Assembly: GCA_902797145.1 (NCBI GenBank)
Contig: CADBRR010000062.1
Location: 1 to 40,365, forward strand
From: an uncultured Eubacteriales bacterium
GTDB lineage: Bacteria > Bacillota > Clostridia > Christensenellales > CAG-138
Reading direction: 5' to 3'
Length of the DNA stretch: 40,365 bases
The notes below the pieces were generated by a model that had not been told where the DNA came from, did no database searches, and saw only the letters and a list, made by a program, of their open reading frames with translations. The position numbers and the translations under genes were made by a program. Positions 8,859 to 40,365 of this stretch are shown here, one piece after another. Every line of letters begins with the position of its first letter. Position 1 is the first letter of the stretch.

Positions 8859-9563
8859 ATGGCAAACGGTCAGCAGATGATACTTATATGTGACGATCAG
8901 GATATAATACAGGAAACACTTGGCGTTTATCTTGAAAACGAGGGGTATGCAGTAGAAAAAGCTATGGATGGTCAAGAGGCGCTTGAAAAATTTGAATCTA
9001 CGAATCCTGATCTTATAGTTCTTGATATAATGATGCCAAAGAAAAACGGCATTGATGTATGCCGTGAAATAAGGACGCAGAGCAGAGTTCCGATAATAAT
9101 GCTCACAGCAAAAAGTGAAGAGATTGATAGAATAATTGGCCTTGAGATAGGGGCTGATGATTATATTGTAAAACCATTCAGTACAAGAGAGGTTGTTGCA
9201 AGAATAAAAGCAGTTCTGAGGAGATTTTCACATCAGAAAGAAGAACCTCAGAAAATACTTCGTTTTGAACGATTGGAAATCAATATAACAAATTATGATG
9301 TTAAAGTAGATGGTAAGAGCGTGCAGCTTACGCCAAAGGAAGTAGAGATTTTGTATTTGCTTGCTTCACATCCTGAAAGAGTGTTTAGTCGAGAACAAAT
9401 ACTTTCGCAGGTGTGGGGATATACATATTATGGCGATATGCGTGCAGTAGATACGCAGATTAAGAGAATAAGGCAAAAGCTTCCCCAAGAAGAGATGCCA
9501 TGGAATATAAGAACGGTCTATGGAGTAGGCTATAAATTTGAGTATAGCAAAGCAATACAATAA
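8859..9563 (+). CDS. OmpR/PhoB-family response regulator (first of two)
   Basis: A two-domain DNA-binding response regulator of 234 aa. The receiver domain has the acidic pair Asp12-Asp13, phospho-acceptor Asp56 (VLDIMMP), Thr83 and Lys105 (VKPF). The C-terminal winged helix has the family pattern LTPKEVEILYLLASHPERVF and ends with RTVYGVGYKFE. The kinase gene follows after 8 bases and is its likely partner. It is closely similar to the regulator at 11380 through most of the receiver. The target genes are unknown; nothing links it specifically to PhoP or VanR. Confidence 0.94.
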   Translation: MANGQQMILICDDQDIIQETLGVYLENEGYAVEKAMDGQEALEKFESTNPDLIVLDIMMPKKNGIDVCREIRTQSRVPIIMLTAKSEEIDRIIGLEIGADDYIVKPFSTREVVARIKAVLRRFSHQKEEPQKILRFERLEINITNYDVKVDGKSVQLTPKEVEILYLLASHPERVFSREQILSQVWGYTYYGDMRAVDTQIKRIRQKLPQEEMPWNIRTVYGVGYKFEYSKAIQ

Positions 9564-37611: not shown

Positions 37612-39078
<1,467 letters not shown>

Positions 39079-39111
39079 TCACCTTTCTTTTAAAATTGTA
39101 TATTTTCATTT

Positions 39112-39140
39112 AGTTTACATATTTAAGTTGATAATGTCAA
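39112..39140 (-). promoter_or_regulatory. guaB promoter
   Basis: On the minus strand: TTGACA (complement of 39135-39140), 17-base spacer, TAAACT (complement of 39112-39117). Confidence 0.78.
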
Positions 39141-39141
39141 C
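39127..39141. promoter_or_regulatory. Dyad overlapping the guaB -35 box (possible operator)
   Basis: GTTGA (39127-39131) and TCAAC (39137-39141) are inverted arms around five bases and cover the -35 hexamer. A repressor bound here would block guaB. No known operator family was recognised, and five-base arms can occur by chance. Confidence 0.35.
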
Positions 39142-39199
39142 AGTTTTTTTGTAATTTTTTTGCTTATTTCGTAAAATTTTTTAAAATTAAAAAAAATGA

Positions 39200-39228
39200 T
39201 TGACTTAAAGCAACATACAATATATTAT
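39200..39228 (+). promoter_or_regulatory. purA promoter
   Basis: TTGACT (39200-39205), 17-base spacer, TATTAT (39223-39228). The start is expected near 39235, giving a leader of about 115 bases. Confidence 0.7.
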
Positions 39229-39230
39229 TA

Positions 39231-39343
39231 AAAGGGATTGTTTTGTGTATTTAATCCTTCTGTGCTTGTGCTATGGCACAAAAGCACTTATCCTACACGA
39301 AAGGAATGTCCGCATAAAGAAGAATAATTTGCGGATGCGGTAA
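39231..39343 (+). promoter_or_regulatory. Structured purA mRNA leader
   Basis: The leader holds a two-part hairpin: GTGCT/AGCAC outside (39262-39266 with 39283-39287) and TGTGC/GCACA inside (39267-39271 with 39276-39280), with loop TATG. AATCCTT (39253-39259) can pair either with AAGGGATT (39232-39239, one bulge) or, less well, with AAGGAAT (39301-39307). GTGTA/TACAC (39245-39249/39294-39298) encloses the hairpin. CCGCAT (39310-39315) can pair with ATGCGG (39335-39340) just before the start. No Shine-Dalgarno is visible. It does not match the purine, PRPP or ZTP riboswitch patterns as remembered. Confidence 0.4.
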
Positions 39344-39349
39344 ATGTTT

Positions 39350-40365
39350 ATGTCTACTTGTGCAATAGTTGGTATTAACTGGGGCGATGAAGGTAAGGGA
39401 AGAATGGTTGATCTTCTTGCCGAAAAATTTGATATTATAGTAAGATATCAAGGTGGTAATAATGCAGGTCATACTGTAATAAATGAATATGGTAAATTTG
39501 CCCTTAATCTTATGCCGTCAGGAATATTCCGTAGAGATGCTGTAAATATACTTGGTAATGGTACTGTAATTGACCTTGAACATATCTGCGGTGAAATGGA
39601 TAAGCTTCGCAAAGCTGGAATAGAGATAACTCCCGATAATCTTAAAATAAGTAATCGTGCTATAATTGTTTTTCCTTATCACAAAGAACTCGATTGTCTT
39701 GAAGAAGCAAGATTGAAGGATGCAAAGTATGGTTCAACAAAGCGTGGTATAGCACCTGTTTATAGTGATAAATATCAGAAAAAAGGTATAATGATGGGCG
39801 ATTTGCTCATGAAAGATGTACTTGAAAAACATCTTAAGGGAATACTTGAATGGAAAAACCTTACAATTAAAAATGTTTATGGAGCAGAACCGTTCAAATA
39901 TGAAGATATGCTTGCATGGGCTGAAAAATATGGAAATATTCTTAAACCCTATATTTGCGATACGAGCAAATATCTTTATGATGCAGTTGCACAGGGAAAA
40001 TCAATTATGTTTGAGGCTCAACTTGGCGCACTTAAAGATATCGAATTTGGTATTTATCCTTTTACATCATCATCATCTCCGCTTGCAGCATATGCTCCTA
40101 TTGGCGCAGGCATTCCCGGTGTAAAAGTTGATGATGTAATAGGTATTGTTAAGGCATATTCAACAGCAGTAGGTGAAGGTCCGTTTGTTAGTGAATGGTT
40201 CGGAGAAGAAGCAGAAAAGCTCAGAGAGGCTGGTGGAGAGTATGGCGCAGCTACAGGCAGACCAAGAAGAGTTGGTCCAATCGATCTTGTTGCAACAAGA
40301 TATGGAGTAAAAATTCAGGGTGCAACAGAAATTGCAATTACAAAACTCGATGTACTTTCGTATAT
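39350..40365 (+). CDS. purA: Adenylosuccinate synthetase, 3' truncated
   Basis: The enzyme joins IMP and aspartate with GTP to adenylosuccinate, the first step to AMP. The first 338 codons are present. Seen are the GTP/IMP loop WGDEGKGR (11-18), GGNNAGHTV, GNGTVIDLEH and KYGSTKRGIAPVYSDK; the frame is open at the window end. The ATG at 39350 gives the usual N terminus (MSTCAIVGINWGDEG); another ATG two codons earlier is possible and an in-frame stop stands at 39341. No clear ribosome binding site is present. Confidence 0.96.
   Translation, partial: MSTCAIVGINWGDEGKGRMVDLLAEKFDIIVRYQGGNNAGHTVINEYGKFALNLMPSGIFRRDAVNILGNGTVIDLEHICGEMDKLRKAGIEITPDNLKISNRAIIVFPYHKELDCLEEARLKDAKYGSTKRGIAPVYSDKYQKKGIMMGDLLMKDVLEKHLKGILEWKNLTIKNVYGAEPFKYEDMLAWAEKYGNILKPYICDTSKYLYDAVAQGKSIMFEAQLGALKDIEFGIYPFTSSSSPLAAYAPIGAGIPGVKVDDVIGIVKAYSTAVGEGPFVSEWFGEEAEKLREAGGEYGAATGRPRRVGPIDLVATRYGVKIQGATEIAITKLDVLSY

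Follow-up and report, generated by a model that had tools for sequence, protein, structure and literature searches.

In pyrC of enterobacteria, the formation of a helix at the 5' end of the transcript, set by the starting base, decides whether the Shine–Dalgarno (SD) sequence is exposed. Structure can also alter the distance between the SD and the start codon: in genes 38 and 25 of phage T4, a hairpin cuts this distance from 22 nt to 5 and from 27 nt to 11, respectively (as described in the accessible text of PMC3014915). In the preQ1-II riboswitch (RF01054), the HLout pseudoknot carries the SD in one of its strands and occludes it, thereby controlling translation (PMC11625349, accessible text). 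The available part of PMC4448216 describes slippage and the choice of start in genes for nucleotide metabolism, and nucleotide-sensitive pyrC starts appear among the titles in the reference list of PMC5730371.

The leader of the purA gene examined here shares with the two T4 genes an SD that is too far from the AUG, a stable hairpin between them and an effective spacing that would fall within range (PMC3014915, accessible text); it is probably a new instance of this known split-SD arrangement. It is unlike the T4 genes in several respects: it precedes a purine gene on a bacterial chromosome, the distance is 38 nt, longer than the 22 and 27 nt of the phage genes, the arrangement is unconserved, the case for it is built on sequence, and there is a possible gate farther upstream, formed by two mutually exclusive helices, P0 and P1. 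The reading that we favour, tentatively and with rather less than even confidence, is that the SD, GAAAGGA, is bridged to the start by a hairpin that it precedes, P3, and that its use is tuned by the exchange of P0 and P1.

The purA locus and its leader

The gene lies at the right end of the window, by which we mean the whole 40,365-nt stretch of DNA that was analysed, and encodes adenylosuccinate synthetase (PF00709, E 6e-132). It is transcribed divergently from guaB (IMP dehydrogenase; 37612–39069, minus strand). A start upstream of 39344 is ruled out by the in-frame TAA, leaving two candidate start codons, the second of which, ATG 39350, matches the methionine at which PurA begins in some relatives. 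The leader extends from a promoter-like site to these ATG codons; shuffled sequences give an expectation of 2.9 such sites for the 501-base region, which holds four. From its distance to the promoter-like site, the transcription start is expected at ~39234–39237, on AAAAGGGA, where P0 begins. The features of the locus are collected in Table 1. Elsewhere in the window, the 113 bases upstream of 36889, a formate/nitrite transporter gene (PF01226), fold well (z −4.1), and this fold may be just the terminator of the preceding gene.

Table 1. Features of the purA leader, with positions in the window
Feature	Position	Strand	Sequence elements	Remarks
Promoter-like site	39200..39228	+	TTGACT, 17 nt, TATTAT	10/12 consensus bases; sigma-70-like
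Helix P0	39233..39259	+	AGGGATTG 39233–40 / TAATCCTT 39252–59	8 bp, two G-T
Helix P1	39241..39302	+	TTTTGTGTA 39241–49 / TACACGAAA 39294–302	9 bp, one G-T
Possible leader frame	39245–39343	+	GTG start, AAAAGGG before it	32 codons, in frame with purA; TAA 39341–43 abuts ATG 39344
Putative pairing	39255..39305	+	TCCTT 39255–59 / AAGGA 39301–05	By complementarity; would form a pseudoknot with the inner five pairs of P1
Inner hairpin	39262..39287	+	GTGCTTGTGC-TATG-GCACAAAAGCAC	10 bp, 2-nt bulge, loop TATG
Displaced SD	39299..39305	+	GAAAGGA	7-nt match to the canonical anti-SD
Hairpin P3	39307..39340	+	TGTCCGCA 39307–14 / TGCGGATG 39330–37, or CCGCAT 39310–15 / ATGCGG 39335–40	Between SD and start
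purA	39344..40365	+	ATG 39344 or ATG 39350	PF00709; runs off the contig

A displaced SD and the hairpin P3

The initial annotation described the leader as lacking an SD. This holds for the normal distance, where the best duplexes reach only −3.3 kcal/mol for ATG 39344 and −5.0 kcal/mol for ATG 39350; however, an SD is not absent but displaced, since GAAAGGA forms a duplex of −8.7 kcal/mol at a distance of 38 nt from ATG 39344 and 44 nt from ATG 39350. Scoring used the canonical anti-SD sequence, which we take to apply to this organism; its own 16S gene was not found in the search. The genome does use SDs: across 222 called genes (324 kb; simple, uncurated long-ORF calls) the best duplex has a median of −8.2 kcal/mol, and SDs containing GAAAGGA also precede four genes of the window, at 8859, 16000, 17824 and 18773. 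A local duplex as weak as that of purA, or weaker, was found for 32 of the 222 genes, and a weak SD is thus not rare by itself.

Between the displaced SD and the start lies P3. The CCGCAT/ATGCGG stem that had been noticed earlier is indeed present and ends nine bases before ATG 39350, and an overlapping register, GTCCGCA (39308–14) with TGCGGAT (39330–36), is favoured over it (pair probability ~0.55 vs 0.23). The spacer has a minimum free energy (MFE) of −9.6, against a mean of −4.9 for shuffled spacers, of which 26 in 1000 were equally stable. Folding of P3 would leave 7–9 nt between the SD and ATG 39344, or 13–15 nt to ATG 39350. Because P3 would shorten the spacing in this way, we propose that the ribosome binds across it: GAAAGGA would be the SD that is used, 38–44 nt upstream of the purA start, and P3 would fold in the cell between the SD and the AUG and help initiation by bringing the effective spacing to 7–9 nt for ATG 39344 or 13–15 nt for ATG 39350. 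Additionally, P1 would pair the first four bases of the SD and P0 would free them, so that exchange of the two helices could tune initiation.

Several points argue for a bridged SD, namely, the strength of GAAAGGA relative to the local sites, the 7–9 nt that a folded P3 would leave and the rarity of the arrangement in shuffled leaders (11 in 5000). Set against it are a rule for recognizing such arrangements that was drawn up post hoc, the eight internal ATG codons of the same genome, of 1704 scored, at which the arrangement also occurs, and its occurrence in none of 105 relatives. Moreover, the GGA of the SD is often paired, being unpaired for only 0.36–0.46 of the time in the modelled ensemble, and the 13–15 nt that would remain to ATG 39350 is longer than ideal.

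Local sites and the purA starts of relatives

The main rival to the bridged SD, which we consider possible though doubtful, is that a weak local site is used, either GCGGA (39331–35), 8 nt before ATG 39344, or GCGGT (39337–41), before ATG 39350. P3 would then act as a brake, damping initiation by pairing TCCGC with GCGGA, and GAAAGGA would be incidental or a standby site. Both local sites are at a normal distance, the 32 genes with equally weak local duplexes show that the genome lives with such sites, and one relative, the PurA of which is 76% identical, has AGGCGGAT at the place that corresponds to GCGGA/GCGGT. On the other side, GCGGA is unpaired for only 0.30 of the time on average, and duplexes of only −3.3 and −5.0 kcal/mol are weaker than those of purA in every relative scored.

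The comparison with relatives covered 105 distinct purA genes (109 loci minus four duplicates, as judged by the upstream 150 nt). A local SD at −5.1 kcal/mol or better was found in all 105, and at −6 or better in 100 of them; that of the window was the weakest of the 106 purA genes scored. For each relative, the start with the best score was chosen from several that lie no more than 45 codons upstream of the WGDEGKG motif, a procedure that favours finding an SD. A bridged SD was found in none of the 105. In five loci of one genus (L051, L053, L055, L057 and L058), purA apparently starts 16–18 codons farther upstream, from an SD-like site of its own of the GAGGT/GGGGT type, with a short N-terminal extension. 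A further locus, L070, has a terminator-like hairpin with a T run in its purA leader, just upstream of position 451, which is a lead for attenuation there.

Alternative pairings in the leader

The leader had initially been read as a nested hairpin enclosed by GTGTA/TACAC, with a segment, AATCCTT, that has two possible partners, and both parts of this description bear out. GTGTA (39245–49) and TACAC (39294–98) form the core of the 9-bp helix P1 and enclose the 10-bp inner hairpin, the outer four pairs of which are firm (probability 0.96–0.98 in the fold ensemble). The 3' side of this hairpin (39271–39281) matches the complement of early codons of purA (39358–39368) at 10 of 11 bases; this near-complement was dropped as a probable chance match. 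P1 pairs GAAA, the first four bases of the SD, and P1 and P0 are mutually exclusive. When P1 is enforced, the fold lies 1.5 kcal/mol above the minimum energy, and its modelled probability ranges from 0.03 to 0.49 depending on the 5' end of the RNA; with a 5' end at 39230, P0 has a probability of ~0.9 and P1 of ~0.03.

AATCCTT (39253–59) is complementary both to the other strand of P0 and, through TCCTT, to AAGGA of the SD. As a nested helix, the latter pairing has a probability of 0.00 and an enforced energy of −32.2 vs −39.1, values that refer to the nested form alone, the putative pseudoknot being outside the energy model. A different partner for the SD is TCCT at 39291–94, which pairs with its AGGA (39302–05) with a probability of 0.40–0.47.

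The initial annotation likened the leader to a riboswitch that controls translation. A role in translation is plausible, because the leader lies between the promoter-like site and purA and because the only strong SD lies partly within P1; for a riboswitch there is no positive evidence, with no match in Rfam and no homologous leader found. In such a riboswitch, P1 and the putative TCCTT:AAGGA pseudoknot would form around a ligand and bury the SD. We regard this as very improbable, despite the complementarities being in place and the gene belonging to the purine pathway. Its outline is like that of preQ1-II (PMC11625349, accessible text), in that translation would be controlled by a pseudoknot, one strand of which contains the SD; the likeness is one of topology only, as the purA leader has no covariance-model match to that class, precedes a different gene and has a pseudoknot that is itself putative. 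Furthermore, the loop between P1 and the second strand of the pseudoknot would be only 2 nt long, and comparable bistability is seen in 58 of 400 shuffled sequences.

Least probable among the alternatives is that the leader encodes a peptide, ribosomes being handed on to purA from a 32-codon frame that begins at GTG 39245. The frame is open, its stop abuts the purA start and the duplex at its own start is −5.7 kcal/mol. Against this, each of 592 real segments of the same length surpasses it in codon usage, and its score is equalled or exceeded by 2598 of 3000 shuffled open frames. A single match among 150 relatives (E 0.019, 48% over 27 residues) falls inside a 312-codon open frame, and the best local match to the fetched purA loci has an E value of 3.9, neither providing a convincing homologue; moreover, transcription from 39235–37 would cut the SD of the frame.

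Possible control by the transcription start

The position of P0 at the very 5' end raises the idea, which we think decidedly improbable, of a control similar to that of pyrC. Initiation at an A (39232–33) would keep P0 and expose the SD, whereas initiation at 39235–37 would lose P0 and allow P1 to cover it, so that purA translation would be set by slippage or by the balance of ATP and GTP. With equally slight probability, the purine pool could thus be read in the absence of an aptamer or protein: the choice between A and G starts, or slippage on AAAAGGG, would select P0 or P1 and, through them, access to the bridged SD. In silico, P0 and the exposure of the SD depend on the starting base. The probability of P0 is ~0.9 for 5' ends at or before 39233 and 0.01 for 39236, and an RNA that begins at 39236 instead of 39232 has P0 at 0.01 rather than 0.93, P1 at 0.49 rather than 0.04 and a mean exposure of the SD of 0.33 rather than 0.60. 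A change this large is seen in 6 of 600 shuffled sequences, or in 3 of 600 if their first ten bases are left in place. However, this test was chosen after the numbers had been seen, the start is predicted from the promoter match alone, and no relative shares the leader.

The parallel with pyrC is that, in a nucleotide gene, a start-dependent 5' helix would decide the exposure of the SD. The purA leader differs in that its start comes from prediction, the SD is displaced, the pool would be that of purines rather than pyrimidines, and the direction is not one of simple feedback: the A start would give the more open leader, the reverse of what such feedback would require of an enzyme that uses GTP and produces precursors of AMP.

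Chance and genomic background

That the leader is nothing special, i.e. a moderately folded leader before a weakly initiated gene, with pairings that arose by chance, is in our view unlikely, and several controls are in keeping with it. The MFE of the leader is −30.6 (z −2.0), and 9 of 200 shuffled sequences fold equally well; among leaders of the same genome with free upstream space, 20 of 100, purA included, have a z at or below the −2.19 of purA. A pair of conflicting helices, each no shorter than 8 bp and within 2.5 kcal/mol, occurs in the 58 of 400 shuffled sequences mentioned above. On these two controls, alternative pairing as such is ordinary and not beyond chance. Bridged SDs at internal ATG codons and the lack of conservation point the same way. 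What stands against chance is the coincidence of SD, hairpin and spacing in the same leader.

This coincidence was quantified with a rule that was defined after inspection of the sequence: an SD match of at least 6 nt, 20–60 nt away from the start, with a stem of at least 6 bp, including at least three G-C pairs, that leaves 4–15 nt. Such an arrangement was found in 11 of 5000 shuffled leaders. With the SD given, 318 of 5000 shuffled spacers had a 6-bp stem, and 75 of 5000 had one of at least 7 bp with four G-C pairs. In the genome itself, the arrangement was found at one of the 222 genes (purA) and at 8 of 1704 internal ATG codons; as internal ATGs qualify too, a single gene in 222 is what the background would give, and there is no enrichment in the genome. 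A bridged SD is found at none of the 32 genes whose local SD is weak; purA is absent from these 32, since the script assigned it the internal ATG 39404. The case for the bridged SD is carried by the fact that the gene concerned is purA, and not by genome-wide enrichment.

Searches for homologous leaders

The earlier remark that the leader matches no recognized riboswitch is upheld by the Rfam 15 covariance models: the window has no match to them at the gathering score, and the region 39060–39420 has none at E values up to 5. Copies of the leader, of the SD/P3 core or of P3 were found nowhere else in the organism's own genome, which alone makes up the genus set. The exact 21-nt core is absent from the viral contigs searched. 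Three matches to phage records were discarded: one, at 96% identity, covers only 24 bases near the promoter, another, at 87%, consists of coding-region bases, and the third lies before the leader.

When 39200–39400 was compared with 200 other relatives by BLAST, the stronger matches started at query base 148 or beyond, i.e. inside purA. Two short matches to the 3' part of the leader (E 0.001–0.002) were rejected, as they fall inside unrelated open frames that lack the purA motif; still weaker short matches to the leader are also listed. Searched against 109 purA loci (29 from the 80 purA-positive genomes among 120 others, plus the best 80 of 590 named-genome matches; the window itself excluded), the leader gave nothing better than E 1.8 with nhmmer or 0.91 with blastn, and no convincing homologue. 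One match, at E 9, falls in a purA leader (L070, 395–433).

A covariance model of the single leader found, besides itself, matches in 10 of 200 relatives with E values no higher than 1 (0.004 and 0.009 for the two best) and in 3 of 390 genomes of the class with E values no higher than 0.1, the two sets overlapping. Eight of the 13 matches were aligned, and in every one some of the structure is skipped or broken; the open frames around the two best show that neither sits before purA. The model is one sequence given twice and was run with stricter Infernal filters, so distant relatives of the leader could be missed. In the literature, no title was found that deals with a purA riboswitch or with a structured leader before purA, the search being at the level of titles for part of the papers, and 'purA' is absent from the main text, as accessible, of two papers on non-coding RNA discovery (PMC11109978 and PMC8632094). 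Since no examined relative shares it, the purA leader seems to be a peculiarity of this locus, and not an established new riboswitch.

Implications

If the bridged SD is wrong, the locus is one more weak ribosome site behind a moderately folded leader. If the bridged SD and the start-site idea both held, the leader would act as a simple sensor of nucleotides on the branch that leads to AMP. If, as we tentatively favour, the SD is bridged by P3, a chromosomal housekeeping gene would use the split ribosome site known from phage T4, a layout that simple inspection of the start codon would report as having no SD.
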